DNA of 45,235 nucleotides, from the NCBI GenBank assembly GCA_031275815.1, contig JAISOF010000019.1:1-45235 (forward strand). Reading direction: 5' to 3'. Shown here piece after piece: positions 7,903-30,892 of this stretch; the stretch's first letter is position 1, and the number at the start of each line of letters is the position of its first letter. The notes under the pieces are model-generated. The model saw nothing but the letters and a program-made list of their open reading frames with translations, was not told the origin of the DNA and searched no databases. The stretch comes from Candidatus Nomurabacteria bacterium (GTDB lineage Bacteria > Patescibacteriota > Saccharimonadia > Saccharimonadales > Saccharimonadaceae). The position numbers and the translations under genes are program-made.

Positions 7903-8927
7903 TGAATATTATTAAATCCGTTAAAGTTGCCAATTTTCGTGTGCATAAACGGTTCGAGTTGGTTACTGACAAAATGACGACTTTAGTGACTGGTGGGAAT
8001 GGCAGTGGCAAGACTTCGTTGATTGAGGCGCTGTATATTTCTTTGCGGGGGAAGTCTTTTCGCAGTGCGGACAAGGATATTTTGCAAAAAGGCAGGCAGT
8101 TTTACAGGATTGAAACGCTGTTTTGCGGTGGCGAGAGAGTGATTGTTAAATATACTGAGGGTAAAAAAGAGTTTGAGCTTGGCGGAAAGAAACACCGACG
8201 GCTGCCAAAAAAAAATCGTCAGCCGATAGTGTTGTTTGAGCCGAGCAATCTCAATTTGATTCACAACTCCCCTGCCTCCCGCCGAGATTTTTTCGACAAT
8301 CTCATTTCGCAAATTGACGAGCCGTACGCGGAGGCGGTGCACAAATACAAAAAATCTTTGAAACAAAGAAATAATTTGCTGAAAAAAGATTTAGCAACGC
8401 CGGAGAACTTGTTTGCGTGGAATGTGATGTTGGCGAGATATGGTACAGAGATTGTGTTGAAAAGGAAGTTTTTTGTTTCGGAAATTAACGAGTTATTGAC
8501 GAAGACTTATCAAGATATTGCGAAAAATCATGACGAAGTAAAGATTGTGTATGAAAATACAGAAGTTGACGAAACCAAGTATTTGAAACTGCTGGAAAGT
8601 AGTTTTTCGAAAGATAATGTTGTAAAAAATACAACATTTGGGCCGCACCGCGATGATTTTTTGTTTAATTTTAACCGCCAATTGGCAAATAATGTGGCTT
8701 CGCGCGGTGAAAATCGCACGATTGTGCTCGCGCTCAAGTTTATTGAGGCTGAAATCATCATGAAATATTTGAACAAGCAACCGATTGTGTTGCTTGATGA
8801 TATTTTTTCTGAACTCGATGAATCGCGCCAAAAGAGCCTGCTCAAAAACTTCAAAACTCATCAAATCATCATCACGAGCGTCAAGCCGCCAAAAGGCATG
8901 AAGAGCGATGTTAATATTTGTAATTAA
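7902..8927 (+). CDS. recF: DNA replication/repair protein RecF
   Basis: A 341-aa SMC-like ATPase that helps load RecA at gaps. Walker A is GGNGSGKTS (31-39), the ABC-type signature region is VASRGENRTIVLALKFIEAE, and Walker B with the D-loop is PIVLLDDIFSELDESR. The N-terminus MNIIKSVKVANFRVHKRFEL is typical. It overlaps dnaN by 1 nt and converges with the first minus-strand secretion-locus gene, the two coding ends overlapping by 17 nt. Confidence 0.95.
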   Translation: MNIIKSVKVANFRVHKRFELVTDKMTTLVTGGNGSGKTSLIEALYISLRGKSFRSADKDILQKGRQFYRIETLFCGGERVIVKYTEGKKEFELGGKKHRRLPKKNRQPIVLFEPSNLNLIHNSPASRRDFFDNLISQIDEPYAEAVHKYKKSLKQRNNLLKKDLATPENLFAWNVMLARYGTEIVLKRKFFVSEINELLTKTYQDIAKNHDEVKIVYENTEVDETKYLKLLESSFSKDNVVKNTTFGPHRDDFLFNFNRQLANNVASRGENRTIVLALKFIEAEIIMKYLNKQPIVLLDDIFSELDESRQKSLLKNFKTHQIIITSVKPPKGMKSDVNICN

Positions 8928-9633
8928 TGGTGTAACTATTGATGTCTAAGTTGTGGGACTCAAACCACTCTGCAACCAATTTTTTCTGGCGGGTGATGGC
9001 TGATGGTTTTGGCTGGCCGTTTTCGTTGTAATCCCAAGACACAAAGAATAAATCTGTATCAAGAGAAAGCTGATTGTCTTCGCCAATACGCAGTTTAATT
9101 GAAAAATCTACGCTCATGTATGGCAGATAATCAACAATGGGGTCTCGAATCGGGTCGAGTGTGGAGGGGTCGTCTTGACACGGGAAAGTACCATAAATCA
9201 ATTGGTTTTCAGGAAGACAGCTAATCACGACGGCGTACCCAGACAAGTTGGGGTTGTTTGAGTCGTCCGACCATTCAAAATAGATTTTGAAAGAATGTTT
9301 TGTGCTGGCGATGTCGACAATAAAATTGCCGTAATGGATGTTTTGTGTGGAGTCAAAACTGTTTTCTGTGGAGTTGTCGCGAACCGTCGCAGAAACGTTG
9401 GACAGCTCGCCTGCAATGGAGGACACGCGGTTGTAAAGCGAGGCGGAGATGGCGTCAATGCGGTCTTGCGGCAAATCGGGCACGGCCAAAGTCAGATTAG
9501 TGATGGTGATTTGATTGCCGTATGGGTTGGTGTGCGGCTTGAAAAACGTGAATAAAATAAGTCCGACAGCCAAGGCGGCGAGCAGGATTAACAAAATGCT
9601 TTTTTGCCGGAGGAGTTGTTTTTGATTATCCAT
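8911..9633 (-). CDS. Cassette A gene 3: small membrane-anchored protein, unknown
   Basis: A 240-aa protein with a short basic N-terminus, one helix (ILLILLAALAVGLILFTFF) and a probably extracytoplasmic domain starting NPYGNQITITNLT. It is a diverged paralogue of the 244-aa protein at 14254-14988: both share the NPYG segment just after the helix, a CLP(E/A)(N/S)QLIYG(T/D)F(P/D)C motif around two cysteines, and a C-terminal W-x8-DIN/DINKY pattern. It starts 3 nt after the hydrolase stop, so it is the last gene of cassette A. I recognise no wider family; a role alongside the hydrolase, for example as chaperone, anchor or immunity protein, is only a suggestion from position. Confidence 0.82.
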   Translation of the reverse strand: MDNQKQLLRQKSILLILLAALAVGLILFTFFKPHTNPYGNQITITNLTLAVPDLPQDRIDAISASLYNRVSSIAGELSNVSATVRDNSTENSFDSTQNIHYGNFIVDIASTKHSFKIYFEWSDDSNNPNLSGYAVVISCLPENQLIYGTFPCQDDPSTLDPIRDPIVDYLPYMSVDFSIKLRIGEDNQLSLDTDLFFVSWDYNENGQPKPSAITRQKKLVAEWFESHNLDINSYTINYKY

Positions 9634-9636
9634 AGT

Positions 9637-10866
9637 CTATAATCCTTTCAAAATATTATCAGTATAAACATAAGTGTAACTGCCGTTGGTGTAGTCGCTC
9701 AAATTATAAACATGAGCACCAATCCAATCAAACGAGGCGCTACAGCCAGCCTCACCAATAATGATTTTGTCACCCTCAATCCCCAGCACAACACCAGTGT
9801 GTCCGCACGGCAAGCCGTCGCTGCAAATCGTGCTACCGGTTTGTTTGCTGAAAATAGCGTAAGGTCTGGGGGTGGTGCCACCGCTCACAAAACCAAGATC
9901 CAACAAACGGGAAACAACATGCTTGCCGTTTGGCAATCCAGTAACATGCTGCGTCGTGTAGCGATTGATAAAATATTGAGTGAAAGCAACGCAATTTGAA
10001 AGGTCGTTGGTGCAACTGGTGGTGGCTGAAATATCCCAAGGTCCCAGCATCCCGTTAGTTCCCCACTCGGCGGGGCTAATGCTTTTGTATTCAGCCATAA
10101 AAGCGTTGGCTTGATCCCCACTCATCCCCCCCAAAATCACTCCACCGCCACAGTTTGTGGTGAGGGTTCCGCCACTAATGCCGGCAAACTTGCTATACCA
10201 TCCCTCCGCCAAAGTAATTCGCAGAGTCATAGTGTCGTCAGCAGAGCGTTCAAATGCTTCATGAAAATAAGTGGTTGCGTCAGCGATGGTGGTTTTGGTG
10301 TTGATAATTTCTGGAATATTGTCGCCATTATTGTCAGTCATTTCCATGAAAGCATAATCCAACTCAACCAAAAGCAAAGCGTCGTTATCACCAACTGGCA
10401 TGGTAGCGTCGATATTTTTATCACCCCACCCATCTTTATAATATTGGTCAAGTCCGGCTTCACGCATTTTAGCGAAAAGCCCAGCTTGGCGGGTGTGATA
10501 AGTCCATTGCGCGATACCATAACCTGTCACACCGTCGCCATCATCAGGAAGTGTTTTGGTGCTGTCGTTTTGTTTGCGAGCGGGGTCAAGGGCGGATTCC
10601 GCCGAAAAATTGCCAATAATTCCGGCAATCGCGATTGGCGTCAACCCTTTTTCCAAAAAATAACCCCAGATTTTTTCCGCGTTATCCACTCCAGACAAAA
10701 CAACGGTGTTGTTGCCGCAATTATTTTCCGTTCCGTCCGGATCATAGAAAATAATATTATTTTCCGCATGAAATATTTCATCAAACGCCGCCATCACCGG
10801 AGCAGTTGACAAAAAAACCAACAGGACTGAGGAGAATAAAACCAAATAATACAAAACTTTTTTCAT
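9637..10866 (-). CDS. Cassette A gene 2: secreted peptidoglycan hydrolase (phage lysozyme-like + CHAP)
   Basis: A 409-aa exported protein. A signal peptide (MKKVLYYLVL to PVMAA, about 1-27) is followed by a phage tail lysozyme-like domain (PF18013 type, about 60-230; IAGIIGNFSAESALDP with probable catalytic Glu90, and GYGIAQWT at 115-122), a Gly-rich linker (about 232-250) and a C-terminal CHAP amidase/endopeptidase domain (about 280-405) with Cys292 (NCVAFTQYFI), His356 (CGHTGVVLGI) and Glu372 (GEAGC). Both glycan strands and peptide stems could be cut, the job VirB1-type enzymes do for secretion systems. The ATG at 10866 forms an ATGA overlap with the giant gene upstream; an alternative GTG lies 6 codons earlier. 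The paralogue at 14985-16877 has an extra SGNH domain. Confidence 0.88.
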   Translation of the reverse strand: MKKVLYYLVLFSSVLLVFLSTAPVMAAFDEIFHAENNIIFYDPDGTENNCGNNTVVLSGVDNAEKIWGYFLEKGLTPIAIAGIIGNFSAESALDPARKQNDSTKTLPDDGDGVTGYGIAQWTYHTRQAGLFAKMREAGLDQYYKDGWGDKNIDATMPVGDNDALLLVELDYAFMEMTDNNGDNIPEIINTKTTIADATTYFHEAFERSADDTMTLRITLAEGWYSKFAGISGGTLTTNCGGGVILGGMSGDQANAFMAEYKSISPAEWGTNGMLGPWDISATTSCTNDLSNCVAFTQYFINRYTTQHVTGLPNGKHVVSRLLDLGFVSGGTTPRPYAIFSKQTGSTICSDGLPCGHTGVVLGIEGDKIIIGEAGCSASFDWIGAHVYNLSDYTNGSYTYVYTDNILKGL

Positions 10867-13800
10867 ACCAAGTCCACCACCCACTTTCTGCGGTTTTCGC
10901 TGAAACTCATCATCGAAAAAACTTTAGTCCCGTCAAACTTTTTCAAAGCCTTCGCAAGAATAGTTTTTTCAGTGTCCAATTCGTCAATTTTATAATCCTC
11001 TGTGCTGCCCCACCCGTATGGTGAAGGATAAAGCGAGGCGACATAAGTCGGATCAAGCTTGCCATTCACATAATCTTCCATCACTGCCAGATATTCCACC
11101 ACCTCTTCCTTATGCATACCTGACGCCCGCGCCAGATATCCCTCAAAACTATTATCCACAGGATGGGCTCCTTCATATTCGTCGAGCAGAGCCACCACCG
11201 GACTTTTGCCACCCACGTTCTCGAATCCGCCCATGTTTTCCAAGATCCGATTATCCTCAATGTACTGCTGGTAATAAACCATCTCGCTCGCCCAATATTC
11301 ATTCTTAGCGGACGCGACGCAATTTTCTCCATAAACCCAGCCGCTCTCCAACGCGTCAACAGTTTGCCCCGCCTCCACCAAATCCATAATTTCCCCAGCA
11401 ACCGGAACCAAGCCAGCCACAGTGCTCGCCACAGAGCTCTTGGAAATAGGATTCAAATATTCGTCGATGATGTTGGCGTCATTTGTGCCAAACGTTGAGC
11501 CGCGATTGGAACAAAAGATAATATAGGCATACAAATTGGAGCCGGTTTTGATTTGCTCGTTGCCCTCCGGATACAAAGAAGCGTCAGCATAAACATCCGT
11601 TCCAGTATAAGTGTGCGGAATAATATTATCAAAGCCATCACTTCCGGCGTCGGTGATGCACCTGCCCCAATCAGTGAGATTCCCATCCGCGTCATACATC
11701 ACGCCAAGCGGCGAGTGGTACTGATCGCAAATATCGGTTTCCAAGATGAAGTTGTGTCGCCTGTTGCCATAGCTGCCATCCAGCCACTTATTGGACGCCT
11801 GAAACGGCATACTATAAACCTTTTCCATAATTTCATCTGGGCTGATTTTTTTGGTTGACACATCGGACACAAAATAAGGTTGGCAATAAATATCGCCCTC
11901 CGCGCCAATGTAGTTCAGCGCTGGACAGTCGCCCTTGTTGCCCTCAAACTCAGCGTCATCCAGCGCACCGGCGGTGGGCAATAATGTGGTGACAGATTGT
12001 TTGAACAAACTCCCAACTGCGGAAAAGACAGTAGTGGTCGTGGGGAATTTGCCAACAAAAGACAGCGCTTTTGACATAATACTCCCCAAAAAAGTATTTT
12101 TATTGGAAACATCAAACGGACTATATGTTTGCCGATCTAGTTCGGCATTCATCGCGAGCACCGCCCTTTGTTCTCGGCGAAACGTCAAAATCGCAGGGGT
12201 ATCCGCCGGACTGCCCCCGCCGGTTTGGTGAGCGCTGGCCAGCCAGGCGTGCGAAGCAGAAGTCATAGCGTTGCCGGAATCTGCACCGCGAGCCTCGCTC
12301 ACCAAATCTTGAGCGAACACGTTCGCCAGTTTTGGCAACAGCGCACCCACCGCACCCATTGCCGCACCCGCCAACACTACTTTTCCGGAAAACTTCACGA
12401 ATATCTTGCCCAAAGCTTTCACGCCAGTGCTGAGCAAGCTTCCAACCCCAAATGTGCCGATTGTGATTGCAATGGAAGCTATTGCCGCGACGCCTTTCAT
12501 CGCCATGCAAGCCGCCAAAGAAGTTTTTGTAACATTAAACCCTTTCAACGCCCCTTCCATAGAATACCTCATCTCGCTAATGCCATTTTGGTTGGCGGGA
12601 GATCCCGTCGTCACCCACGCCATGCCTGACGCCTCCATGCCGGATTCTGGCGTGGCGCCGGCAACGGTATATAGGTTATTATTTTCGTCCACATCTTGCA
12701 ACACAGCAGGTTCAGTCAATATTTTGCTAAACTCGTGGATGGGGCTATTGCTCCCGTTTCCATACTTGGCTTTGTCGACGGACTCCGCAAACGACGAGGC
12801 AAAATCCACCAGTTTTGCCAACTCCATCGCCGCCGTCAAAGCATTGACTGCCGCCACGCCCAACATCACGCCACAAGTCAAATCTGACGCGCCGGCGATG
12901 GCGCTAATTTTGGTGGTGAAACCTTTGGTGGCTGCCGCGCGCGCGGCAGTTTTGTCGGCACTGTTGTTATCGACAAGCGCAACTTGGCGTCCACCAATCT
13001 CCCCGTCGCTTGTGGTGCGTCTGAATTCGGAGCCTTCGTCTGAATCGGTGGATTTGTCGGCATAAGTGTCGCCGTCAATATCCAACTGACCTGCTTTGGC
13101 TTTGTTCGCCATCGCCTCGACAAAAGCGCGGTTGCCAACTTCCCTGTCGTTGACATCGGCAATATAATCCTTGAATAAATTGCGTGAAACGTTCCATTTG
13201 CTCAGGAAACGCACCGCCAACTTGTCGAACCACCCCGCAATCCGCCCCGACCAAGTACGCGACCCTTTCAGGTATCCGTTGCGAAAATTGGGGTCAGCGT
13301 TGAAAAAAGCTTCGAACTCGCCGGCCGTAACAATCTTTTTGGTGCCGGAGCCGTCGTCGAAGAGTAGGACGCGCTGATTGAGTGTACCACTATTATCTAA
13401 TATATCATCCATATTATCTGTATCGCCTATTCGTTTGATACTGCCATCATAGTTACCATTAGCGTCGACCGGAAAAGTTCCCTTGTTGTATATCTCAATA
13501 CCCTGCTTTTTCAACAAAGTCTGCCGGTTGCTGGACATATTTTTGAACTTCAACTCATTGAAAGAAAATAATTTTTTTGCGGTTGGATTGGTGCGCTCGT
13601 CCAACAGATTTTTGGTGATGGTTTTGGCGCGCAAACTGGTGCCCACCTCCAGTGAGTTAAAATCCTCCACCAACATTTCGAGCACATGAAACGGCAAAAT
13701 CGCTTGCGACCCAAAAATCAGTAGCGCCCCCGCCACCACCAAGCCCGCAATCAACCCAACCGGCCCAAACTTCTTCATCAGTTGACGCGGAATACCAGCC

Positions 13801-14150
13801 TGCGGAAAAGCTTTGTTGAACGGCGAGTTTGGAGCGCCCTTGCCCTTGACATTATTTGTGAACGATGGCACCGCATTTTCCGCCTCGCGCGAACTACCAA
13901 CCGTGGATTTGTCAGGAATAGCTCCAGTTTTTTGCCCAGCCTTGCGCTCGGCGCCCGCAAGACCGCCGCGCTCTTTTTCCCTGCGTCGCTCGGCGTCCGT
14001 CCAACTCTCACTCAGCTTCTCGCGCTCCTGATCCAACTTCGCCCAACTCGGCTTAATATCGGATTGAATCTCGTCCTTGAAACGATAATCGCGCTCACCC
14101 AAAGGGTCGCCACCTTGCTCGCCAGCTCGGTCGTCCTTTATGTCACTCAC
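10863..14150 (-). CDS. Cassette A gene 1: giant T4SS-associated membrane protein
   Basis: A 1095-aa protein of no family I can name. A highly charged N-terminus (about 1-125, with REKLSESWTDAERRREKE and GSSREAENAV) precedes a first helix at about 129-152 (GPVGLIAGLVVAGALLIFGS). Further hydrophobic segments lie near 410-445 and 560-625. The second half looks extracytoplasmic, with paired cysteines and many Tyr/Asn/Gly, and the end is SMMSFSENRRKWVVDLV. It aligns in outline with the 1231-aa protein at 16874-20569, very closely at both termini. The GTG start follows a GGGGGG run 7 nt upstream; I see no better start. Position downstream of virB4 and next to secreted hydrolases suggests an envelope part of the secretion apparatus (inference). 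Confidence 0.85.
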   Translation of the reverse strand: MSDIKDDRAGEQGGDPLGERDYRFKDEIQSDIKPSWAKLDQEREKLSESWTDAERRREKERGGLAGAERKAGQKTGAIPDKSTVGSSREAENAVPSFTNNVKGKGAPNSPFNKAFPQAGIPRQLMKKFGPVGLIAGLVVAGALLIFGSQAILPFHVLEMLVEDFNSLEVGTSLRAKTITKNLLDERTNPTAKKLFSFNELKFKNMSSNRQTLLKKQGIEIYNKGTFPVDANGNYDGSIKRIGDTDNMDDILDNSGTLNQRVLLFDDGSGTKKIVTAGEFEAFFNADPNFRNGYLKGSRTWSGRIAGWFDKLAVRFLSKWNVSRNLFKDYIADVNDREVGNRAFVEAMANKAKAGQLDIDGDTYADKSTDSDEGSEFRRTTSDGEIGGRQVALVDNNSADKTAARAAATKGFTTKISAIAGASDLTCGVMLGVAAVNALTAAMELAKLVDFASSFAESVDKAKYGNGSNSPIHEFSKILTEPAVLQDVDENNNLYTVAGATPESGMEASGMAWVTTGSPANQNGISEMRYSMEGALKGFNVTKTSLAACMAMKGVAAIASIAITIGTFGVGSLLSTGVKALGKIFVKFSGKVVLAGAAMGAVGALLPKLANVFAQDLVSEARGADSGNAMTSASHAWLASAHQTGGGSPADTPAILTFRREQRAVLAMNAELDRQTYSPFDVSNKNTFLGSIMSKALSFVGKFPTTTTVFSAVGSLFKQSVTTLLPTAGALDDAEFEGNKGDCPALNYIGAEGDIYCQPYFVSDVSTKKISPDEIMEKVYSMPFQASNKWLDGSYGNRRHNFILETDICDQYHSPLGVMYDADGNLTDWGRCITDAGSDGFDNIIPHTYTGTDVYADASLYPEGNEQIKTGSNLYAYIIFCSNRGSTFGTNDANIIDEYLNPISKSSVASTVAGLVPVAGEIMDLVEAGQTVDALESGWVYGENCVASAKNEYWASEMVYYQQYIEDNRILENMGGFENVGGKSPVVALLDEYEGAHPVDNSFEGYLARASGMHKEEVVEYLAVMEDYVNGKLDPTYVASLYPSPYGWGSTEDYKIDELDTEKTILAKALKKFDGTKVFSMMSFSENRRKWVVDLV

Positions 14151-14196
14151 AAGCGACCCCCCACGTTACCTGTCCAAAAACTATGCATATACCCAA

Positions 14197-14225
14197 ATTA
14201 TCTCAAGTTGTCAGCGGCATGTCAA
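14197..14225 (-). promoter_or_regulatory. Promoter of cassette A
   Basis: On the minus strand a perfect -35 TTGACA (14220-14225), a 17-nt spacer and a -10 GATAAT (14197-14202) lie in the 103-nt gap between the cassettes. Cassette A can therefore be transcribed independently of cassette B. Confidence 0.6.
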
Positions 14226-14253
14226 GTTTGGGCAACACAAGCCGAACGCTGTC

Positions 14254-14988
14254 TTAATAAAATACACTGTAATCCACGACGTATTTATTAATGTCAAATC
14301 CTTGTGAAGATAACCAGCCAGCTATTTGCGACTTTATAGACGATATTTTTTCATTTATTTGCGATTCATACTCTGAAATTAGCGGGATGTCTATATAAAT
14401 TGACGCTTTTAAGCGCAAACTTCCGGAATTATCATACCCGTACTGCAAGTTGTAAACGTCAGTTTTGTGCGGCAATATTTCAATTATGGGGTCAAGCTTG
14501 GAATCGCCCTTCTCCAAAATAAGTTGGTCTTTGCAATCGAAATCTCCATAAATAAGCTGACTGGCGGGCAGGCACAGCACCATAGTCCCATACTCGGACA
14601 GATGGTCGTTATTTTCAATCTCCGACCATTGATAAGATACCTTATAAGATTGCTTAATGCTTTCAATATCCACAATAAACTCTACAGAATGCACATCATA
14701 AACGTCGTCGTAAGTCTGGCTGAACGAGGAATCTCTCACAAAAACGTCTTTGATGGATTTGTTTTTTATGGTGGCGCTTGAATTGCGCTGAATTGCAACC
14801 AACAAGTCGTGTTGGATAAAATTAACCGAGTCTTTATTTTGAGGCTTGCCTGCGGTGAGCTTGCCAAGGTTATTTATTTCAATATAATCTCCGTAAGGGT
14901 TTCTGGTATACGTATAAATAATCCACCCCACGAATGCAACTGCAACAATCAGCATAAATATCAGCAGCACGCGTCTATTGTTTATCAT
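14254..14988 (-). CDS. Cassette B gene 3: small membrane-anchored protein, unknown
   Basis: A 244-aa paralogue of the protein at 8911-9633. N-terminal helix VLLIFMLIVAVAFVGWIIYTY, then RNPYGDYIEINNLG, and the shared cysteine motif CLPASQLIYGDFDC. The outside domain is probably mostly beta (alternating hydrophobic pattern), and the end reads GFDINKYVVDYSVFY. Its ATG overlaps the hydrolase stop by 4 nt, so cassette B is tightly coupled. Identity to the cassette A copy looks low outside these motifs, so the duplication is old or the genes diverged fast. No function is assigned. Confidence 0.82.
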   Translation of the reverse strand: MINNRRVLLIFMLIVAVAFVGWIIYTYTRNPYGDYIEINNLGKLTAGKPQNKDSVNFIQHDLLVAIQRNSSATIKNKSIKDVFVRDSSFSQTYDDVYDVHSVEFIVDIESIKQSYKVSYQWSEIENNDHLSEYGTMVLCLPASQLIYGDFDCKDQLILEKGDSKLDPIIEILPHKTDVYNLQYGYDNSGSLRLKASIYIDIPLISEYESQINEKISSIKSQIAGWLSSQGFDINKYVVDYSVFY

Positions 14989-16877
14989 AGCAAGCCCTCC
15001 GCCATTAAAACGTCAGTCTTGATTTCTGGATAGGCAAATTTCATGGTGCTTGGGTTTCCGCCGAAATGACTCATCACCGAAGTAAGCGTTTCCATGGTCA
15101 ACTTGCTAGTATAAGTTCCAGAGCAAGACGATTCTGCAATGATGACTTTGTTCGCAGCTACGTCCACGCCCAGAATCAGACCCGTGTGCCCGGCGCTAGT
15201 AAGGCTACCGCCACCTTGGCTGAATATGGCGAACGGCTTTGGCTCGGTGCCCCACGACAAAGAGGGGTTTCTTTCCAACAGCTGATCCACAACTTCGTTG
15301 CCATTCCCGCCGCCTGGTGTAAGATTTGTGTATTTGCCCACAAAATATTGCGACAAAGCCGTACAATTAGACAAAGGTCGAACCCCATTGCAAGAGCTGC
15401 TGTTCACCCGACCGCCTATGTAAGCCACATTAGTATTATAGTTAACTGGGCTGTTATATATGCTGATAAACTCTTCTGCCTCTTCTTGGCTCAGCCCGAC
15501 TCCAGACCATCCTCCATATCCATTACACCCCGTGCTAGTATTAGTAGCGCCTGTTCCATTTGACAAAGCGCCAAATATGACGTCAGCAAACAACTCTTTC
15601 CCCTCATCAGTCGGATGTACGCCAAGTCCGTCCGAGTTTGTGATGTATCTTGTGGGGTTGGATGCAACTGCCTCCGCCCAATCGGCTATGAGTACGTTTG
15701 CGTTACTCTGTTTCACCGATTGGAGCGCATTATTATTGGAGGAATAGTCTTTGCCGGATTCAGACAGCGCATAATTATTCACAAAAATAATGGTTTTTGA
15801 ACTGCCTATTTTGTTCACCACGTCTTCAACTTGACCAACGGTCAAACCGGCATTATTGGTGCCAAGCGCATAAACCACAATATCCCTCAACTTTCCTGCG
15901 CTAATCAGTTGATCTAGTATCTCAATGCCGGTGGGATTACTAGCATTAGTTCCGGCAAACTGTTTGCTGTCTTGCGCATGTATGTCCGCTTGGGGCAGTT
16001 TGGCCAATATCTGGCTCTTGCTACCGTTTGTGATGGAGTCGCCGATTATCGTGACGTCAAAACCATCAATACTGGCTGAAGGTTGACCAGTATACCCAGA
16101 AAAACGTTCAAAAAATGCTTGGGCTTGGCTTAACCGAACTTGCTTCAAGTTTTCATAAGCTGCGGGATTTTCATTTCTCTTGATATACGCCGCTGGAACC
16201 TCGACTTTTTCCAAAAAGGTGATGGTGGCTTCTTCCACAGTGGTTGCCGACAGCGTAGCCCTATACGTCGAATTGTTGTCAATTTCGTTGCGCAAAAATT
16301 GTAATTCTATGGAATATAATTTTTCCAAAATATCAATTCCTGCAACATTGACAAACTCTTCGGCGGACAACAGCGAGCCGTAATTTGTTCCAGCGTACTT
16401 TTCGTAATCTTCAAAATAAACCAAAAGATTGGGATCGACGTTCTTGACAGCGTTCATGAGATTTACTCTTCGCCCCCAAGACCACTGAATCAGACCAATG
16501 CCATAAGCAACTGCCCCATTGAATAAGTCGAATCCGGGTTGATGGGCCTGAAGTTGTCCGACTTCATGCACGACTGGGTTCAATGTTCCGGCTGACTCGC
16601 TTTGCATGTTTCCCAAGATACCGGCTGTTTGCTCTGGCGTGAAACCGAGACTGATGAGACCATTCCATAATTTTTCTGCGGATTCGCTACCGGTGACAGA
16701 CACAGACCCATAACTGCTGCACCCGACATTAGGGTTGAAAGCTCCATCTGGATCATAATAAATAATATTATTCTCCGCGAAAAAAGTCTCATCAAAAGCC
16801 GCCATCACCGGAGCGGTTGACAAAAAAGCCAGCGGAATCATGGCAAGCAGAACCAAGTTGTGTAAAACTTTTTTCAT
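14985..16877 (-). CDS. Cassette B gene 2: secreted three-domain cell-wall enzyme (phage lysozyme-like + SGNH + CHAP)
   Basis: A 630-aa exported enzyme. The signal peptide and first 45 residues nearly match the cassette A hydrolase (FLSTAPVMAAFDE, then AENNIIYYDPDG). Domains in order: phage tail lysozyme-like (about 65-260; AGILGNMQSESAG with probable Glu94, YGIGLIQWSWG); SGNH/GDSL hydrolase resembling OatA C-terminal domains (about 272-440; VTIIGDSITNGS with Ser281, ALGTNNAG at 337-344, SDGLGVHPTDEG with Asp416/His421); and CHAP (about 495-625; LSNCTALSQYF Cys505, SAGHTGLILG His564, AESSC Glu582). OatA-like domains add or remove O-acetyl groups on peptidoglycan, which modulates lysozyme action. 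The ATG at 16877 overlaps the upstream stop as ATGA. Confidence 0.88.
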   Translation of the reverse strand: MKKVLHNLVLLAMIPLAFLSTAPVMAAFDETFFAENNIIYYDPDGAFNPNVGCSSYGSVSVTGSESAEKLWNGLISLGFTPEQTAGILGNMQSESAGTLNPVVHEVGQLQAHQPGFDLFNGAVAYGIGLIQWSWGRRVNLMNAVKNVDPNLLVYFEDYEKYAGTNYGSLLSAEEFVNVAGIDILEKLYSIELQFLRNEIDNNSTYRATLSATTVEEATITFLEKVEVPAAYIKRNENPAAYENLKQVRLSQAQAFFERFSGYTGQPSASIDGFDVTIIGDSITNGSKSQILAKLPQADIHAQDSKQFAGTNASNPTGIEILDQLISAGKLRDIVVYALGTNNAGLTVGQVEDVVNKIGSSKTIIFVNNYALSESGKDYSSNNNALQSVKQSNANVLIADWAEAVASNPTRYITNSDGLGVHPTDEGKELFADVIFGALSNGTGATNTSTGCNGYGGWSGVGLSQEEAEEFISIYNSPVNYNTNVAYIGGRVNSSSCNGVRPLSNCTALSQYFVGKYTNLTPGGGNGNEVVDQLLERNPSLSWGTEPKPFAIFSQGGGSLTSAGHTGLILGVDVAANKVIIAESSCSGTYTSKLTMETLTSVMSHFGGNPSTMKFAYPEIKTDVLMAEGLL

Positions 16878-19800
16878 ACCAAATCCACCACCCACTTCCT
16901 GCGGTTTTCGCTGAAGCTCATCATGGAGAAAATCTTGGTCTTGTCAAACTTTTTCAAAGCTTTCGCGAGGACAGTTTTCTGAGTGTTCAGCTCCTCAATG
17001 CTGTGCTCCTCCTCATCTCCTCCCCAACCGTACGGCGAGGGATAAAGCGAAGCGACATAAGTCGGGTCGAACTCGCCATTGATGTATTTTTTCAAAACCG
17101 CCAAATATTCGGTGGTTTGCTCTTTCGTCATGCCGGACAGGGACGCGAGGATGCCTTCATAGCTTTCGTCTTGAGGATAAGCCGCGTCTAGCTTTTCCAA
17201 GAAGGCGGATTGCGAGGACAGCACGTCGGTGGCCGCTTCCATGATGCGCGCGTGCTCCATGTATTGTTGGTAGTACACGAGTTCTTGGTTCCAGCGGTCG
17301 GCATAGTTGATGTCATACATTGTAGTAGCGCTATCATCGCCAGGTCCTCCGCTTAACCCCGTAAATAGGTTGGTGGCGTCATAGATATAATTACCGTCCT
17401 CATCTTTCGGTCCGTTGGGGTCGTTATTGGCGACGCAATTCAGTCCATTCATCCAACCGGTTCGATAAGCTTCCGCTTTTGTTTTCGCGTCCAAGATGCT
17501 CAGACCATCACCTATCACAGGAATCGTGAACAAAAGGGCGTTTATAGGGTGGGAATAGACATAGGAGATATTGTCATCGACCGTGCCATACGAAGCATAG
17601 CCGCCCGGCACATAACGTTGAGTACAAAATTGTATATAAAAGCCAAGATTTGATTGGGGGTTTATTTGCTCGTTGCCCTCCGGATATGGTGGTGTGAAGG
17701 TGTATTCTGCGTCACCAACTGCCTCACTGAAAACGGTTTCGCTGTAGGCTATCAAGGTTTTTTCTGGCTCCAAAACGTCTCCAGTATAACCTTCCGGTAT
17801 AATATTATCCACTCCGTCTCTCGCCGCCCTATCTAAGCATAAACCCCACTTAGTCTTACCGCTTTTATAATATCCTCTGCTCCGACTGTAACTCCATTCC
17901 CAATAGCGCCAACCAGCTGCACTGCCATAAAGGCTATCGCACCTATCAGTTTCCAGTATGAAATTATGCTTGCGGACAGGAACGGGAATACCAAAATAAG
18001 GGAGTGCATTATGAGTAAGGCTCCCATTATTCCACGGACTCACACTACCCGGTCCACGAAGGGTGTCGGTGTCTGGGACGGGAGTTTGGGTGGGGCTTGG
18101 GCTGGCGACTGGTGTTCCGTCGCCTAAATGCTTATTGTCCACCACCCAATCCGACATATAAACTTTCTGAAAAACATCCTCTGCTGATATGCCCTTAGTT
18201 GTGACGTCAGAAACCATATAAGGCTGGCAATACATATCGCCTACCGCCCCGACGCTTTCCAAATTCGGGCAAGTTCCGATATTATCCCTGAACTCAACAT
18301 CATCAAGCGCGCTGGCGGTCGGAAGCAGTGTCGAAACGGACGAGCTCGTGATGTTGCCCAGTGTGGACAATGCGCCAGTCAGGGTCGGGACATTCCCCGA
18401 AAAAGCCGCAACTTTTGAAAGAATACTACCAAAGAAAGTATTTTTGTTGGTGATGTCGAACGGGCTGTGCGTCTCCCGATCCAACTCGGCGTTTGCCGCA
18501 ATTACTTTTTGCTGTTCATGCCGAAAGGCCAGAACGGCGTCCTCTGACCCACCACTTCCGCCACTTGCTCGGTGGTTTCCGGCATCATAAGCGTGTATGC
18601 CGGCGGTGAGGGCATTGCCAAAATCCTCACCCGCCAAATCCTCAAAGCTCTGAGTGAATGCGTCAGCCAATTTCGAAAAAATGACTCCGCCAAATAGCAT
18701 AAAGAATCCAACTATTCCCGCCACGATGACCGCGTCTTGGATGAGACCAACGAAGATTCGCGCGATTAAAGTCCCCCCCCCAGTGAAAATAGCCCCAATG
18801 ACCGATGCGGCGGTCACCATGACGCTTGCGGCGGCAGCGACAACTATAGTAATCAAGCACGCCTTATAAGTGCCAGAAGTAAATTTGACACCACCTTCAA
18901 AAATCGTGCCTGCTAGTTGGCTTAGCCCCGACTCTTGGTTGAAACGCATCTCGCTTTCGCCAGAAACATTGGCTGGACTGCCAGTTGTCGACCACATAAT
19001 GCCGGAGGATTCCATTGCCGACTTGTCTTCTCCGTATTCATATTTTGTAGCTATTTCGAGATTGTCAAAACTGTCAATACCACTTGTGCCATCGCCGATT
19101 CCAGAGACAGTGACTCCGTCGGCTTTGGTTGTTTGTGTTGGAACTTGCTCTGTGAGCCGGTTGGAATATTCCGTGATGGGGCTTTCGTTTCCATAGCCTG
19201 CCTTACCTTTGTCTGTCGCTTCGGCATAAGTGGAAGCTGCGGTGACGATTTTTAACAAGTTGGCCGCCGCTACAAGCGTTGTGATAGCGGCAAGACCAAG
19301 CATTATACCGCAGGCTAAACTGCCTTGACCTGCGCTTTTTGCCACGCCAGTGAAGGTGGTTTTGAAATTATTTAAAGCTGCCACCCGAGCTTTTTTGCTG
19401 CCTTCGCTGGAGCGCCCTGGCGTATCATCACTCCGCACAAGCTGCTGGGTGTCTTTGTCGTAATGAAAATTTCGGTCAGTTGTCCTTGCGCTCGCGCCAT
19501 TCGCCTCCAAGCTCGCACTTGCCACCGTTTTGTTCAATTTGGCATTTCCCGCATTCACCGATTCCACTTCGGCTATCCAACCTTTGAAAAGATTGCGGTC
19601 GAGCTTGAACTTTTTCAAAAACCGCACTATTTGCGTGTCGAACCAACCCGAAATCCGCCCCGACCAACTGCGCGACCCTTTTTTGTAAGCACTGCGAAAA
19701 TTGGGATCTTCATTAATGAGTTTCGAAAAGTCGTCAGCGGGCACAATCCTCTTGGTTGAACCGTCATCATACACTATGACTTTCTGTTTCAGAGTTCCAT

Positions 19801-20569
19801 CAGCGTTGGTGGCGGACGAATAAGCTGCGCTATGTGCATTGATATCCTTTATACTTAAATCGGGAACAGCTCCTTTGTTTACAAATGTAACACCCTGAGC
19901 CTTCAGCCTTGCGACTTTACTGCTAGACATTTTTTTGAATTTGTTGCCCGTGAACGGTATAAGTTTTTTCTGAACAGCGCTTTTTTCGAGCGCATTGGTC
20001 GCTGTTGACGCGGTTATCATACCGCGCGTAATCACCACAGCGCTTATGGCAGTTCCGGCTTCTAATGAATTGAAATCCTCCGTGAAAAATTCAAGCACAA
20101 AAAATGCGATGAGTGATGTCGCAATCAGAACCGGAATAATACAAATCCCACCAATCAACCCCACAATCAACCCAATCGGCCCGAACTTTTTCAATTTTTT
20201 GAGCGGAGAGCTGCCTCGTGAAAAGAGTCCGCCTTTTCCACCCTTGCCGCCGCCCTCTTTCCCCTGTACGTTATTCGCAAAGGACGACCTTGAAGCCACC
20301 GCATTCTCCGCCTCGCGCGAACTGCCGGCGGTGGATTTGTCGGAAATGGGCTTGGCTTTCTTCTCCGCCTTGCGCTCCGCATCCGCAAAACCGCCACGCT
20401 GCTTCTCTTTGCTTCGCTCGGCGTCCGCCCAACTTTCACTCAGCTTCTCGCGGTCCCGCTCGGCTTGAGACCACGACGGCTTGATATCTGGCTGCTTGAT
20501 ATCGTCCTTAAAACGATAATCGCGATCAGCATACCTCTCATCCAAATTATCGTCGTGTTCCCTATCCAT
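16874..20569 (-). CDS. Cassette B gene 1: giant T4SS-associated membrane protein
   Basis: A 1231-aa paralogue of the 1095-aa protein. The charged N-terminus repeats the same pattern (DYRFKDDI, PSWSQAERDREKLSESWADA, SDKSTAGSSREAENAVA), followed by a Gly/Lys-rich stretch, a first helix at about 130-158 (GPIGLIVGLIGGICIIPVLI), further hydrophobic blocks around 425-455 and 580-650, and an outside domain. Unlike copy A it has a Pro/Thr-rich linker (SPSPTQTPVPDTDT) in the C-terminal half. The last 17 residues are identical to copy A (SMMSFSENRRKWVVDLV). No Shine-Dalgarno; TGATACAAT ends 7 nt before the ATG, predicting a leaderless mRNA. No family name; envelope component inferred from context. Confidence 0.86.
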   Translation of the reverse strand: MDREHDDNLDERYADRDYRFKDDIKQPDIKPSWSQAERDREKLSESWADAERSKEKQRGGFADAERKAEKKAKPISDKSTAGSSREAENAVASRSSFANNVQGKEGGGKGGKGGLFSRGSSPLKKLKKFGPIGLIVGLIGGICIIPVLIATSLIAFFVLEFFTEDFNSLEAGTAISAVVITRGMITASTATNALEKSAVQKKLIPFTGNKFKKMSSSKVARLKAQGVTFVNKGAVPDLSIKDINAHSAAYSSATNADGTLKQKVIVYDDGSTKRIVPADDFSKLINEDPNFRSAYKKGSRSWSGRISGWFDTQIVRFLKKFKLDRNLFKGWIAEVESVNAGNAKLNKTVASASLEANGASARTTDRNFHYDKDTQQLVRSDDTPGRSSEGSKKARVAALNNFKTTFTGVAKSAGQGSLACGIMLGLAAITTLVAAANLLKIVTAASTYAEATDKGKAGYGNESPITEYSNRLTEQVPTQTTKADGVTVSGIGDGTSGIDSFDNLEIATKYEYGEDKSAMESSGIMWSTTGSPANVSGESEMRFNQESGLSQLAGTIFEGGVKFTSGTYKACLITIVVAAAASVMVTAASVIGAIFTGGGTLIARIFVGLIQDAVIVAGIVGFFMLFGGVIFSKLADAFTQSFEDLAGEDFGNALTAGIHAYDAGNHRASGGSGGSEDAVLAFRHEQQKVIAANAELDRETHSPFDITNKNTFFGSILSKVAAFSGNVPTLTGALSTLGNITSSSVSTLLPTASALDDVEFRDNIGTCPNLESVGAVGDMYCQPYMVSDVTTKGISAEDVFQKVYMSDWVVDNKHLGDGTPVASPSPTQTPVPDTDTLRGPGSVSPWNNGSLTHNALPYFGIPVPVRKHNFILETDRCDSLYGSAAGWRYWEWSYSRSRGYYKSGKTKWGLCLDRAARDGVDNIIPEGYTGDVLEPEKTLIAYSETVFSEAVGDAEYTFTPPYPEGNEQINPQSNLGFYIQFCTQRYVPGGYASYGTVDDNISYVYSHPINALLFTIPVIGDGLSILDAKTKAEAYRTGWMNGLNCVANNDPNGPKDEDGNYIYDATNLFTGLSGGPGDDSATTMYDINYADRWNQELVYYQQYMEHARIMEAATDVLSSQSAFLEKLDAAYPQDESYEGILASLSGMTKEQTTEYLAVLKKYINGEFDPTYVASLYPSPYGWGGDEEEHSIEELNTQKTVLAKALKKFDKTKIFSMMSFSENRRKWVVDLV

Positions 20570-20694: not shown

Positions 20695-22518
20695 CTACTT
20701 CTTGCCCTTTGGCGTTGTCGTCACCAACTGCTCCTCTGTCTGCGAAGCAATAATCTCAATGTGCACGTGGTTGCTGCCGGCGAAAAACAGCCCTTGCCCA
20801 ACGGGGAAATTGGCGAGGCGTTTTTTCTCTTCATCAGTCAACTTGAAGACATCCGACAGTACGTCAACTGCAGCGGTGGATTGTTTCAACAAGAGTTGCA
20901 TGGAGGAGTTTTGCACCACCGCGCGCCCCATCTTGCTGCTCATGAAATCTTCCACATCTTGCGAAATGGTGGTCAGTCCAAGATAATATTTGCGCGCGCG
21001 CTTTGCCAGCGAAAACAAAAACGACGCGGAATCATCATATTTCATCAACTGCCACGCCTCGTCAACAATCAACATGCGGCGCTTTTGCTCGGCACGCACG
21101 ATATTCCAGATGTGCGACAGCACAATGTACATCGCCACTGGTCGCAATTCATCCTCAAGGTCGCGAATATTGAATACCACCATTTGGTTGTTGATGTCAA
21201 TATTGCTCTGCTGACTGAAAATGCCCGCAAACGTTCCGGAAGTATATTTGCGCAAACGTTGCGCGAGGTTCGGGCCAGTGCCGCCCATGTGGAGTAATGT
21301 GTCATATAGATTGGCGATGGTCGGTGGCGGTGATTGGTGGGTCAAGGGGTCGGAAGTGATGCCCGCCCGCGCGTAAGTGTCCATCAAAGCTTGGTCAAGA
21401 TCCGCCTCCTCGTTCGGTGTCAAGACCGGAACCGACTGCCCGCCGGTTGCCGCCGCCATCGTCGCGCCACCCAACATCAAACGGAACAGTCCATGCAAAG
21501 TCACCAAATTGGAGCGCAAAGCGTCGCCGGCGTCCTCACTGTCCACCACCTTCGGAATGTCAAACGGATTAATGCGCACGTCCGAGTTCAAAGACAGCCG
21601 AATATACGATCCGCCCACCGCGTCGCACAACTTTTGGTACTCGTTTTCGGGGTCGATAATCAAAATCTCCGTCCCCATCATCATGGAGCGCAAAGCCTCC
21701 AACTTCACCGTGAACGATTTGCCGGCGCCGGATTTCGCGAACACCACCATATTGGCATTTTCCAAAGAATAGCGGTCGAAAATCACCAGCCCGTTGTTGT
21801 GCATGTTAATGCCATATAGCACGCCCTTGTCTTGGGTCAAATCGGCGGAAGTGAACGGGAAACTGGTGGAAATCGCGCCGGTATTCATGTTGCGCCGGAT
21901 TTGCAACTGGTCGGTGCATTGCGGCGTCGTTGAGTTTAACCCCTGTTCCTGTTGCGAAGACGCGACTTTCGAAAACACCATTTGTTGCCCAAAAATCGTT
22001 TCAATCTTGTTTTGCACAAAGTTTAACTCATCCAAAGAATCGGCGTACAATGTCAAATACAGCCCGTAACGGAAAAACTTCTCTGCGCCGACCTGCAGCT
22101 GGTCGCGCAATTCCTCCGCGTCCTGAATCGCCGCTTCCAACTCCGGATCACGCACCTTACCGCGCTCATTGTTGACGTTCATCGAGGCCTCCAGTTGCGT
22201 GACCTTCTTGCGCAAGTTTTTCATAATCACCGCCGACTCCACCGGATAAACATACATACTGACATCTACCACCTCGTCGATGTTGATAATTGAGCTCAGC
22301 CACCCCGTGTAGAGCACGCGCGGATAACCATATATATATAACGTGCGGCCGTATTTGGTGCCCAACCGGAAATACGAGCTGTGGATTTCCAGCGAGCTGG
22401 GGCTGATTAAGTCGCGCAAAGTGGTGATACCGGCCTGAAACGCGCGCTCGGCCTCGTTTTCAATCGCCGCTTGTTGACTGATGGCAATTTCGCTTGCCGA
22501 CATCTTTTTTTTAGCCAT
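20695..22518 (-). CDS. virB4: VirB4/TraC-family T4SS ATPase
   Basis: A 607-aa conjugation-type ATPase. Walker A is AKSGAGKSFT (261-270), the FtsK/VirB4 motif EILIIDPENEY is at 284-294, and Walker B is RMLIVDEAWQLM (481-492), followed by ARKYYLGLTTISQDVEDF, the conserved post-Walker-B region. It hydrolyses ATP at the inner membrane to drive assembly or transport. It is shorter than the usual ~800 aa because the N-terminal region is largely encoded by the preceding gene at 22511-23383, which it overlaps by 8 nt (GGAGG upstream). The first ~180 residues still resemble a VirB4 N-domain. Confidence 0.92.
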   Translation of the reverse strand: MAKKKMSASEIAISQQAAIENEAERAFQAGITTLRDLISPSSLEIHSSYFRLGTKYGRTLYIYGYPRVLYTGWLSSIINIDEVVDVSMYVYPVESAVIMKNLRKKVTQLEASMNVNNERGKVRDPELEAAIQDAEELRDQLQVGAEKFFRYGLYLTLYADSLDELNFVQNKIETIFGQQMVFSKVASSQQEQGLNSTTPQCTDQLQIRRNMNTGAISTSFPFTSADLTQDKGVLYGINMHNNGLVIFDRYSLENANMVVFAKSGAGKSFTVKLEALRSMMMGTEILIIDPENEYQKLCDAVGGSYIRLSLNSDVRINPFDIPKVVDSEDAGDALRSNLVTLHGLFRLMLGGATMAAATGGQSVPVLTPNEEADLDQALMDTYARAGITSDPLTHQSPPPTIANLYDTLLHMGGTGPNLAQRLRKYTSGTFAGIFSQQSNIDINNQMVVFNIRDLEDELRPVAMYIVLSHIWNIVRAEQKRRMLIVDEAWQLMKYDDSASFLFSLAKRARKYYLGLTTISQDVEDFMSSKMGRAVVQNSSMQLLLKQSTAAVDVLSDVFKLTDEEKKRLANFPVGQGLFFAGSNHVHIEIIASQTEEQLVTTTPKGKK

Positions 22519-23383
22519 TATTCACCTCCTTATCCGCCTCATCGCCCTTTTGCACATACATTGAAGTGACCTTTGAAAAGTCCACCAACGGTTCGCGCAC
22601 CGACGTGTCGGGGTTGTTGAAATTATAATACAAAGTGCCGAGCGCTTTGGTGTTCAGCCGGATGGCGGATACTCCCACGCTGCGCAACCCGTCCACCACA
22701 ATTGCCACGCGCTTGCTGACTTCGGTCACGGCCTTTTCAAAAGTGGCTTTGTCGATGCTGGTCACTGCTGGCCCCGCCCCGCCGAACAGTTTTTTGAAAA
22801 ATCCTTTGCTTTGTTCCACCATGTTTTCGCTGGTGTCTGATGTATAATAAGGAATCACCACGAAAAAGCGCTTGTCCATAATGTTCGCCTCTTGGCTGAG
22901 CAGGTCAATAAAATCGATATAATCATCAATCAAAACATTCAGTAACATATTATCTTGGTTGCGGCGAATGTCCTGCAACTTTTCAAGATATGGCCCAATG
23001 TCAATCCGCTGGCTGCGCACCAAAATCTGCACTGTGAAACTCAAAGAATTTAAGAAACCTTGATAAGAATACTCCACACCTTCGCGCTCCATCTGGCTCA
23101 TCAGGTCGAAGTTGATGGACTCGCACTCCACCACCGCGCGAAAACTGCCATCTTTCATTACCACCATGCCGTCGCGAATCTCGGAAATCATCAGGCTGGT
23201 TTGGGTGGTGATGGCCTCTTTGGTGGGTTTGGCTGGGGTTTCGGGTTTATTGGGGTCTTGGCTGGGGGGCACCGGCGGAGCGTTCGGGTCGGGTGGTGGC
23301 AACGGCGACTGCAAAGCCGGAGCGTCAGTCGGGCCGACCTGCGGTTGAAAAATCTGATTTGGTTGCACTGCGTTCGGATCCAT
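22511..23383 (-). CDS. VirB4/TraC N-terminal-domain-like protein
   Basis: A 290-aa protein. A Pro-rich start (about 1-65, PLPPPDPNAPPVPPS) precedes a domain resembling the N-terminal region of TraC/VirB4 ATPases: SLMISEIRDGMVVMKDGSFR, then a helix-rich middle and FFVVIPYYTSDTSENMVEQS. There is no Walker motif. CPR genomes often encode this domain as a separate gene before virB4. I chose the ATG at 23383 (AAGGTGG 3 nt upstream; no overlap with prgI) over a start 24 codons earlier with a poor leader. It probably associates with VirB4 at the membrane (inference). Confidence 0.8.
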   Translation of the reverse strand: MDPNAVQPNQIFQPQVGPTDAPALQSPLPPPDPNAPPVPPSQDPNKPETPAKPTKEAITTQTSLMISEIRDGMVVMKDGSFRAVVECESINFDLMSQMEREGVEYSYQGFLNSLSFTVQILVRSQRIDIGPYLEKLQDIRRNQDNMLLNVLIDDYIDFIDLLSQEANIMDKRFFVVIPYYTSDTSENMVEQSKGFFKKLFGGAGPAVTSIDKATFEKAVTEVSKRVAIVVDGLRSVGVSAIRLNTKALGTLYYNFNNPDTSVREPLVDFSKVTSMYVQKGDEADKEVNNG

Positions 23384-23399: not shown

Positions 23400-24269
23400 T
23401 TAATTATTATTATGACTGATAGCCACGAACACCTCGTCCTCTTTTTGCTTGGCAATCTTGCTGAGTGTTTCCACAGAAAGGTCGGGCGACGAAGCCAACG
23501 ATTCTATTATATCAGAACTAACCGGCACTGCGCTAGTGTCTGGATTCTCCATTTGTGGCGCGGGCACCGGCTCCGGTTCAACCGGCGCCAAAACCGGTGG
23601 CGTGGTCGGGTCAACCACCACACTGGTCGGCGCCACAGATGCTCCAATGCCGCCATAAGATTGCTCAACCTCCTGTTCTTGCTCCGCGATAATCTTGCGC
23701 ATATTCTCAATAATCTCTGCGTGGTGCTCCGCCTCGCTGTCTTCCACCGTCTTCACCATGCTCATCCCCACCGTGCTGTCCTCAAACATGTCGGTCACCG
23801 TCGCCGCCTCTTGGTTGAGCTCGTCGCTGACATTGGCATTTTTCACCACTTGCCCCTCCGTGTCAACCACATTAGCCAAAAACGCCAAGCGCCGCTCCGC
23901 CTCCTCTTCCGAAAGGTCTTTGGTGCGGCTCACTTCTTGTTTTTTGGGCGCGGTGATTGTAATCACATGCTCCTTGCCGTCAGCTTTCCACAAGCGCACC
24001 TTGGGCTTCAAATAAAACGAAACAATCGCCGCAAGATAAGTCTCCATCGGCTGGTCTTTCTTCAGCGGCAAAGCCAACGCCCCAAACAACACAATCACTG
24101 GCAGCGGAAAAATCGCAAGAAATATCATCAGCCCGCCAAGGCTAATAAACAACCACTCCAAAGCGCACAACCCGACCGCCACAAAAAGATACACAAACTG
24201 CCGAAAAGAAAACGGTCCGAGCAACTTGTCATCCGCCTCAACATCTTGGGGTACTTTATAATCTGACAT
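23400..24269 (-). CDS. PrgI-family T4SS membrane protein
   Basis: A 289-aa protein. The N-terminal PrgI domain starts MSDYKVPQDVEADDKLLGPF and has two adjacent helices (about 25-67: FVYLFVAVGLCALEWLFISL and GLMIFLAIFPLPVIVLFGAL), the layout of PrgI/VirB3-like proteins that pair with VirB4 in Gram-positive T4SS. A long acidic, Pro-rich tail (about 110-289) is unusual for the family. The start at 24269 was chosen over 24326 because TGTTACAAT ends 6 nt upstream of it, so translation is predicted to be leaderless, and because the PrgI domain begins there. Confidence 0.85.
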   Translation of the reverse strand: MSDYKVPQDVEADDKLLGPFSFRQFVYLFVAVGLCALEWLFISLGGLMIFLAIFPLPVIVLFGALALPLKKDQPMETYLAAIVSFYLKPKVRLWKADGKEHVITITAPKKQEVSRTKDLSEEEAERRLAFLANVVDTEGQVVKNANVSDELNQEAATVTDMFEDSTVGMSMVKTVEDSEAEHHAEIIENMRKIIAEQEQEVEQSYGGIGASVAPTSVVVDPTTPPVLAPVEPEPVPAPQMENPDTSAVPVSSDIIESLASSPDLSVETLSKIAKQKEDEVFVAISHNNN

Positions 24270-29268: not shown

Positions 29269-29652
29269 ATGAGAAAGCGATTTTTGGCGATTTTGGCGGG
29301 TTTTGTGATGATTTTTGGGGTTTTGGTGGTGGCTCCGGCTCCGGCTTATGCCGCATGCGCGGCTGGAGACAAGGCGTGCGAGTGCAAAGAAAACAACACT
29401 TCCATATTGAAATTTGATTGTGACAAAGATGGCATCTTTGCAATTTTAGATCTTGTCTTGACAATCTTGACCTATGGTGTTGGAGTATTAGCGATTGGTG
29501 CGGTGGTGTTTGCGGGAATAAGATACGCTTCCGCCGGCGGTAGCGAGGAGAATACGCGCAAAGCAAAGAAAATGATTTTCGATACTGTAATCGGTCTGCT
29601 CTGCTATGCGGTATTATGGACAGTCCTTAGATGGCTGTTTGTGGGGTGGTGA
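29269..29652 (+). CDS. T4SS pilin-like protein 1
   Basis: A 127-aa VirB2/TrbC-like subunit (Pfam T4SS_pilin type): signal peptide 1-28 (ending PAPAYA), a short Cys-rich loop (CAAGDKACECKENN), first helix (ILDLVLTILTYGVGVLAIGA), the short loop SAGGSEENTRKAKKMI, second helix (IGLLCYAVLWTVLRWLF). The fold matches two-helix pilins that polymerise into T4SS pili or act as channel subunits. Start chosen at 29269 because of the -10 placed 6 nt before it. First of six tandem paralogues; its stop overlaps the next ATG. Confidence 0.85.
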   Translation: MRKRFLAILAGFVMIFGVLVVAPAPAYAACAAGDKACECKENNTSILKFDCDKDGIFAILDLVLTILTYGVGVLAIGAVVFAGIRYASAGGSEENTRKAKKMIFDTVIGLLCYAVLWTVLRWLFVGW

Positions 29653-30852: not shown

Positions 30853-30892
30853 TAAGGAAAGAAGTTTAAAACAAGAAATAAGAAAGGAAACT

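Follow-up and report, generated by a model that had tools for sequence, protein, structure and literature searches.

The contig JAISOF010000019.1 of Candidatus Nomurabacteria bacterium (assembly GCA_031275815.1), analysed from position 1 to 45,235 (45,235 nucleotides, nt), a stretch hereafter called the window, carries a type IV secretion system (T4SS) locus in which two minus-strand gene trios lie downstream of virB4. Each trio, or cassette, encodes in this order a giant membrane protein, a wall hydrolase and a small membrane-anchored protein, and the second runs into recF-dnaN-dnaA, which is encoded on the opposite strand and is the probable replication origin. The six cassette genes, with protein lengths in amino acids (aa), are:

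16874..20569, minus strand: giant membrane protein A, 1231 aa, with 41% identity to giant B across 1271 aligned columns
14985..16877, minus strand: hydrolase A, 630 aa from the ATG at 16877, with signal peptide, N-terminal label, Phage_lysozyme2, SGNH/GDSL insert and CHAP-like C-terminal part (Pfam)
14254..14988, minus strand: small membrane-anchored protein A, 244 aa, one N-terminal transmembrane segment, conserved C-terminal domain
10863..14150, minus strand: giant membrane protein B, 1095 aa, placed as the sister of giant A in trees of the giants
9637..10866, minus strand: hydrolase B, 409 aa from the ATG at 10866, with signal peptide, N-terminal label, Phage_lysozyme2 and CHAP (Pfam)
8911..9633, minus strand: small membrane-anchored protein B, 240 aa, 32% identical to small protein A (E=2e-37)

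These coordinates bear out the gene order, strand, sizes and coupling given for both cassettes in an earlier note on this DNA. In each cassette the hydrolase ATG overlaps the giant stop by 4 nt, and the hydrolase gene meets the small-protein gene through a 4-nt overlap in cassette A and a 3-nt gap in cassette B. The same note placed both cassettes directly downstream of virB4, which is true of cassette A, cassette B coming after it. It also gave each cassette its own promoter, a statement that finds partial support; a consensus scan found a candidate before cassette B:

14197..14225, minus strand: promoter-like site, TTGACA-17-GATAAT with an extended -10 (11/12 matches)

The best site before cassette A (20604-20577), on the other hand, ends just 7 nt ahead of the ATG, and promoter-like sites are frequent in this region (36 seen versus 18.7 expected).

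The giants align end to end at 41% identity (1,271 columns, 794 bits), the hydrolases align in both halves (35-37% identity, E of 4e-35 and 1e-20), and the small proteins are as alike as listed above. All three pairs therefore resemble each other far beyond chance and over their full length, and the alignments indicate that the two cassettes are paralogous throughout; the earlier note, which saw paralogy at the giants' termini, the signal peptides and the small proteins, had understated it. Neither the giant profile nor the Phage_lysozyme2 family matches anything in the window genome apart from these two loci. An assembly artefact was rejected as the source of the doubling: the copies are only ~50% alike in DNA outside short blocks, and doubled trios exist in other genomes.

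In the giant trees, giants A and B are sisters (SH-aLRT, a Shimodaira-Hasegawa-like approximate likelihood ratio test, 99-100). The tandem giants of genome G196 are likewise each other's sisters, while those of G190 and G229 separated before these two species parted, so doubling arose more than once. The full trio is present twice in G165 and also, though rearranged, in G094 and G196, and some other genomes double the hydrolase-small pair only; doubling of the whole trio is rare but recurrent. Arrangements vary: two related genomes (L071 and L180) have two giants in direct tandem with no hydrolase between them, followed by an 841-aa protein, and in G094 (L034:8690-11509) the genes between the trios include a protein resembling a multi-pass metal permease, with no small-protein gene recognized after the first hydrolase. 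The best matches of the window hydrolases and small proteins sit in other genomes. In approximately unbiased (AU) tests, a topology holding the window hydrolases together was not rejected (p=0.34) and one holding the small proteins together was borderline (p=0.049). All the trees behind these results, those of the giants included, are of quick to moderate quality and contain many long branches. Given how far the hydrolase and small-protein genes have drifted apart, one joint duplication of all three genes is not proven.

Against this divergence, two blocks at the cassette ends have stayed close:

20297..20528, minus strand: N-terminal block of giant A, 77% DNA identity over 232 bp to the giant B counterpart at 13869-14097
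16743..17110, minus strand: junction block A (giant A end, signal peptide and label), 78% DNA identity over 370 bp to block B
10732..11096, minus strand: junction block B (giant B end, signal peptide and label), counterpart of block A

Outside the two blocks, DNA identity between the cassettes is roughly 50% and synonymous codons agree in 218/500 cases, which is near saturation; agreement reaches 40/56 (p=1e-4) in the N-terminal block and 56/87 (p=4e-4) in the junction block, with p-values that are optimistic because the blocks were chosen from the DNA alignment. Both blocks appear more alike than protein conservation requires. The pattern is consistent with gene conversion at the ends of the cassettes and continuing divergence of the enzyme bodies, and a rival reading of the same likeness is selection on translation or coupling.

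The hydrolases themselves have N-terminal Sec-type signal peptides and are predicted to carry lysozyme-like and CHAP-type domains in both copies. In hydrolase B, Pfam reports Phage_lysozyme2 (8.4e-25) and CHAP (1.8e-4, below cut-off), and a PDB search relates its lysozyme part to phi29 gp13 (E=5.6e-6). In hydrolase A, Phage_lysozyme2 is again found by Pfam, which is silent on the C-terminal half, 37% identical to the CHAP part of hydrolase B; among 92 relatives, E100 of hydrolase A is invariant and C511 and H570 nearly so. Hydrolase A alone has a further domain:

15594..16046, minus strand: SGNH/GDSL esterase-like domain (Pfam PF13472, E=4.9e-6, just below cut-off)

This insert shows GDS, GTNN and D..HP motifs, of the GDS / GxNxN / DxxH type expected of the family, and its closest solved relative is 5ug1, deposited as 'Acyltransferase' (a weak PDB match, E=0.0057), which we take to be the catalytic domain of a peptidoglycan O-acetyltransferase. 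Across the 92 hydrolases, Phage_lysozyme2 occurs in 60, CHAP in 22, glucosaminidase in 15, GDSL in 13, NlpC/P60 in 10 and C39 in 8, and in other genomes with two hydrolases one copy often has an extra or different wall-active domain (Amidase_3, GH3, M23 or C39). Judging from these domain assignments, the hydrolases differ through swapped wall-active domains.

In their make-up both window hydrolases resemble VirB1-type proteins, with glycan-cleaving and peptidase domains, a signal peptide and a place in a T4SS locus, the peptidase part of hydrolase A being CHAP-like from its conserved C511/H570. Pfam and NCBIfam scans returned no known VirB1/TrsG/CwlT sequence family for them, and by analogy they would be VirB1-like in role but of another lysozyme family. 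PrgK, the VirB1 of pCF10, is a membrane-linked T4SS hydrolase with muramidase, LytM and CHAP domains (PMC12857230). It thus shares muramidase-type and CHAP domains with the window hydrolases, which differ from it in lysozyme family (set apart by family name), in leaving the anchor to separate proteins and in the SGNH domain of copy A. Another relative is phi29 gp13 (Morphogenesis protein 1, the tail-tip lysozyme/endopeptidase), whose lysozyme domain is homologous to that of hydrolase B and which likewise joins a glycosidase and a peptidase on one chain; in hydrolase B, however, CHAP replaces M23, a Sec signal peptide and the label are added, and no phage genes lie around. The window trio belongs with the T4SS-linked wall hydrolases, an already known kind.

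In our view the wall-facing module of the Saccharibacterial T4SS is probably present here in two diverged tandem copies, the two cassettes, which would provide wall opening in two chemical versions. A more ordinary account, in which the hydrolases open the cell's own wall for assembly of the machine and the second cassette adds redundancy or dosage but has no role of its own, is a possible if doubtful alternative. VirB1 homologues act in this way in Gram-positive conjugation systems (PMC12857230), and one trio suffices for most relatives. A spare copy does not readily account for cassettes that have remained intact despite divergence to 32-41% identity and that differ by a whole catalytic domain, or for doubling that has recurred in other lineages, where one hydrolase bears extra wall-active domains of other kinds.

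Right after the signal peptide, the two hydrolases share a short motif, (N)NIxFYxP followed by Cys, which we call the label:

16743..16796, minus strand: label of hydrolase A, FDETFFAENNIIYYDPDG (family conservation and label profile match)
10732..10785, minus strand: label of hydrolase B, FDEIFHAENNIIFYDPDG (family conservation and label profile match)

Over the 92 hydrolases its residues are kept as N in 76, I in 83, Y in 79, P in 77 and Cys in 92, counts free of the selection that shaped the label profile, whose input sequences had been picked for the pattern. The strict pattern occurs in 70/102 hydrolases and in 2/1,489 unlabelled open reading frames (ORFs), one of the two being a C39-type enzyme. 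The profile has only two matches in the whole window genome, both of them the cassette hydrolases. Searched against related genomes, it picks up in addition large proteins encoded elsewhere that carry SGNH, lysozyme, CHAP, C39 or M15 domains, plus a single label-bearing protein lacking a wall domain. At loci L220-L225, large secreted proteins encoded away from the T4SS bear the same label, most of them with wall-active domains. The label is not merely part of the lysozyme fold, because in two label-bearing proteins of relatives an SGNH-like stretch follows it directly. A literature search found no description of it, which is weak evidence; the doubled trio, the interchangeable enzyme domains and the common N-terminal label appear to be undescribed.

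That the label occurs on various wall enzymes, including some whose genes lie apart from the T4SS, would also suit a reading in which it is a secretion signal and the hydrolases are T4SS effectors delivered into or onto the host. Lysozyme-type toxins delivered by T4SSs are reported from other bacteria (PMC10933484). The hydrolases nevertheless have ordinary N-terminal Sec signal peptides, known Gram-positive VirB1 proteins are anchored machine parts (PMC12857230), no immunity-type gene was identified, and the coupling-protein candidate elsewhere in the genome is weak (E=1e-4). We regard delivery as effectors as improbable.

The giants combine a charged N-terminal region with about three or four hydrophobic segments, which hydropathy places in giant A at about 132-150, 418-436, 570-588 and 613-631. 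Giant A matched no Pfam family; searches with the giants turned up neither a VirB6 family in Pfam nor a PDB sequence, and an AlphaFold model of giant B (mean predicted local distance difference test score, pLDDT, 67.9) matched no solved structure. The idea that the giant is a recognizable VirB6 or another known fold found no support in these searches; only its large size and position are compatible with VirB6/ConG. In other genomes giants carry an M23 or VanY wall-peptidase domain at the extreme C-terminus, and for this reason we place the giant C-terminus outside the cell. Giants of one genus (L041:12495-17117, L042:13977-17648) have an Exo_endo_phos (nuclease or phosphodiesterase-like) domain together with a C-terminal M23, both in the presumed outside part.

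The small proteins consist of a single N-terminal anchor, a variable middle and a common C-terminal domain. The middle is PEGA in 23/47 family members and of no assigned family in the window proteins; hhalign matches the C-terminal domain of small protein A to that of the PEGA-type small proteins (96.5%, E=7.5e-10). No PDB entry matched an AlphaFold model (pLDDT 80.6) with an E-value below 0.18, the 50 best entries listed included no VirB8, and VirB8 was not among the Pfam families listed for the small-protein family. An identity with the missing VirB8 / TcpC (NTF2-like fold) was accordingly tried and found unsupported by Foldseek, Pfam and PDB sequence search; the alignment was shallow and may have missed a distant relation. 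The published record is divided here: the available part of PMC12102498 states that VirB8 was not found in Southlakia epibionticum, at odds with PMC12857230, which lists a VirB8-like component.

An initial scan of relatives' contigs with the giant as query gave no match, and VirB4 then served as query. The frequencies given here come solely from 61 loci that were retrieved with VirB4 as the only query and extend at least 6 kb downstream (28 at recF/dnaN, 33 elsewhere), because a further 40 loci (L032-L071) were picked for a giant or VirB4 match; at many loci the homologues were assigned by simple ORF calling and phmmer. In the 28 recF/dnaN loci the giant lies next to virB4 in 21, giant and hydrolase in 19 and the full trio in 15. 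The trio beside virB4 recurs across genera, and the 4-nt giant-hydrolase overlap is kept in 37/53 loci. The giant profile matches 136/295 genomes of the order, with nearly all of the window's family among them and weak matches in other families; outside the order it matched four genomes of the phylum sample, all marginally (E of 1e-4 or weaker). The trio is thus conserved next to virB4 in relatives and by these counts forms a core part of the Saccharibacterial T4SS locus. With the copies also aligning far beyond chance, neither of the outcomes that the earlier note named as refuting was observed. A strict rule of a single trio beside virB4 in all relatives was discarded, as the giant is not adjacent once virB4 has left the dnaA locus.

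The trio might instead be an independent operon for surface or cell-wall maintenance that lies by chance at the replication origin beside virB4, which we think unlikely. The linkage is indeed lost when virB4 moves, other giants lie elsewhere without virB4, and one relative with a near-identical VirB4 lacks the trio there. Adjacency and order nonetheless recur across many genera, the hydrolase is within three genes of virB4 in 18 of the 33 relocated loci, and Gram-positive conjugation operons show an identical succession of roles (virB4, virB6, virB1, virB8). We assign the trio to the T4SS because of genomic linkage and published essentiality. A dedicated secretion-linked wall module, as originally proposed, agrees with a conserved trio tied to the T4SS and with its wall-active domains, though the linkage to virB4 is not strict.

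Several points weigh against the reading of the cassettes as a wall-facing T4SS module. The giant adjoins virB4 in 0/33 loci where virB4 has left the dnaA locus. In contig L072, whose VirB4 is 97% identical to the window's, different genes follow virB4 and the trio is absent from that place, so the linkage is fluid. The giant and small-protein models, as computed, match no solved structure. Hydropathy alone does not settle the topology that would put the giant C-terminus outside, and docking by way of the label, like cutting of a host's wall, is inferred.

Upstream of cassette A, the locus supplies the remaining T4SS genes:

20695..22518, minus strand: virB4, T4SS ATPase of CD1110 type, the motor gene immediately preceding cassette A (NCBIfam NF045971, E=2.9e-111, above curated cut-off)
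22511..23383, minus strand: TrsD-like protein, VirB4 N-terminal-like (NCBIfam NF041427, E=8.5e-9, below cut-off)
23400..24269, minus strand: PrgI, VirB3-like (Pfam PrgI, 4.4e-12)
25412..29149, minus strand: polytopic VirB6-like protein, 1245 aa, N-terminal third rich in transmembrane or signal segments by hydropathy, named from its position
29428..31775, plus strand: array of six T4SS pilin genes (PF18895 matches)

No Pfam family matched the VirB6-like protein. A seventh pilin gene lies ~8 kb from the array (39603-39983, plus strand), and an IS200/Y1-type transposase-like gene (24716-25270, minus strand; Pfam Y1_Tnp, 4.9e-14) lies between prgI and the VirB6-like gene. With VirB4 above the NF045971 cut-off and TrsD (below cut-off), PrgI and VirB2-like pilins beside it, the system has the features of the Patescibacterial T4SSs resembling the FATA class of mating-pair formation (MPF) systems. 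The window VirB4 is 77-87% identical to those of Saccharibacterial relatives and by sequence belongs to Saccharibacteria; L072, labelled Nomurabacteria, is probably a misnamed relative of the window organism.

The closest described system is the T4SS of Southlakia epibionticum (SEML1_0006-0019), which, in the available parts of PMC10633639 and PMC12102498, has a similar VirB4, TrsD, PrgI, pilin array and position at the dnaA locus, with lysozyme and peptidase genes straight after virB4. According to the same portions of these papers, its T4SS genes are essential for epibiotic growth (PMC10633639), and the essential set includes peptidase and lysozyme homologues right downstream of virB4 (PMC12102498). 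The window differs in having two complete trios, and those portions of the two papers contain no description of the giant family, the small-protein C-terminal domain, a tandem trio or the label. The role of the Saccharibacterial T4SS has been termed completely unknown (PMC11665869).

A second comparison comes from Gram-positive conjugation. The gene order is Orf16-15-14-13 (VirB4-VirB6-VirB1-VirB8) in Tn916 and conE-conG-cwlT-yddI in ICEBs1. The roles of Orf15, Orf14 and Orf13 are as described for Tn916 (PMC12857230), and the order of roles in this wall module is that of the window: VirB4 ATPase, large membrane protein, two-domain hydrolase, small anchored protein. Unlike its Tn916/ICEBs1 counterparts, the window giant has no VirB6 family or structure match and the small protein no VirB8 fold match, a separate VirB6-like protein is present in the locus, and most Patescibacterial systems of this kind have no reported relaxase.

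Under the favored reading, a single VirB4/TrsD/PrgI/pilin engine would serve both cassettes. The giant would serve as the membrane anchor of the module, its C-terminus facing outward, and the hydrolase, exported by Sec, might be docked via its label onto the giant or the small protein, which would confine wall cutting to the secretion site. The small protein may bridge wall and membrane, at the place of VirB8 in Gram-positive conjugation operons though without VirB8's known fold. The SGNH esterase of copy A could strip O-acetyl groups and so expose modified peptidoglycan to the lysozyme domain. As the copies differ in chemistry, the machine could therefore open walls of different make-up, its own or the host's, and the two versions might serve different walls or stages. 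A stronger proposal is a dedicated T4SS-coupled wall-penetration organelle, in which giant and small protein form the dock, the label recruits interchangeable enzymes, and duplication with recombination at the ends swaps enzyme bodies to follow host walls; we hold this only tentatively and think it rather unlikely.

The giant, hydrolase and small protein look like the missing wall-facing half of the Saccharibacterial T4SS, a machine that is, in the available part of the published record, essential for epibiotic growth in the one Saccharibacterium tested. The label offers a testable means of listing every enzyme that may be routed to the T4SS, and the doubling of the trio hints at a way for an episymbiont to broaden or change the range of walls that it opens.

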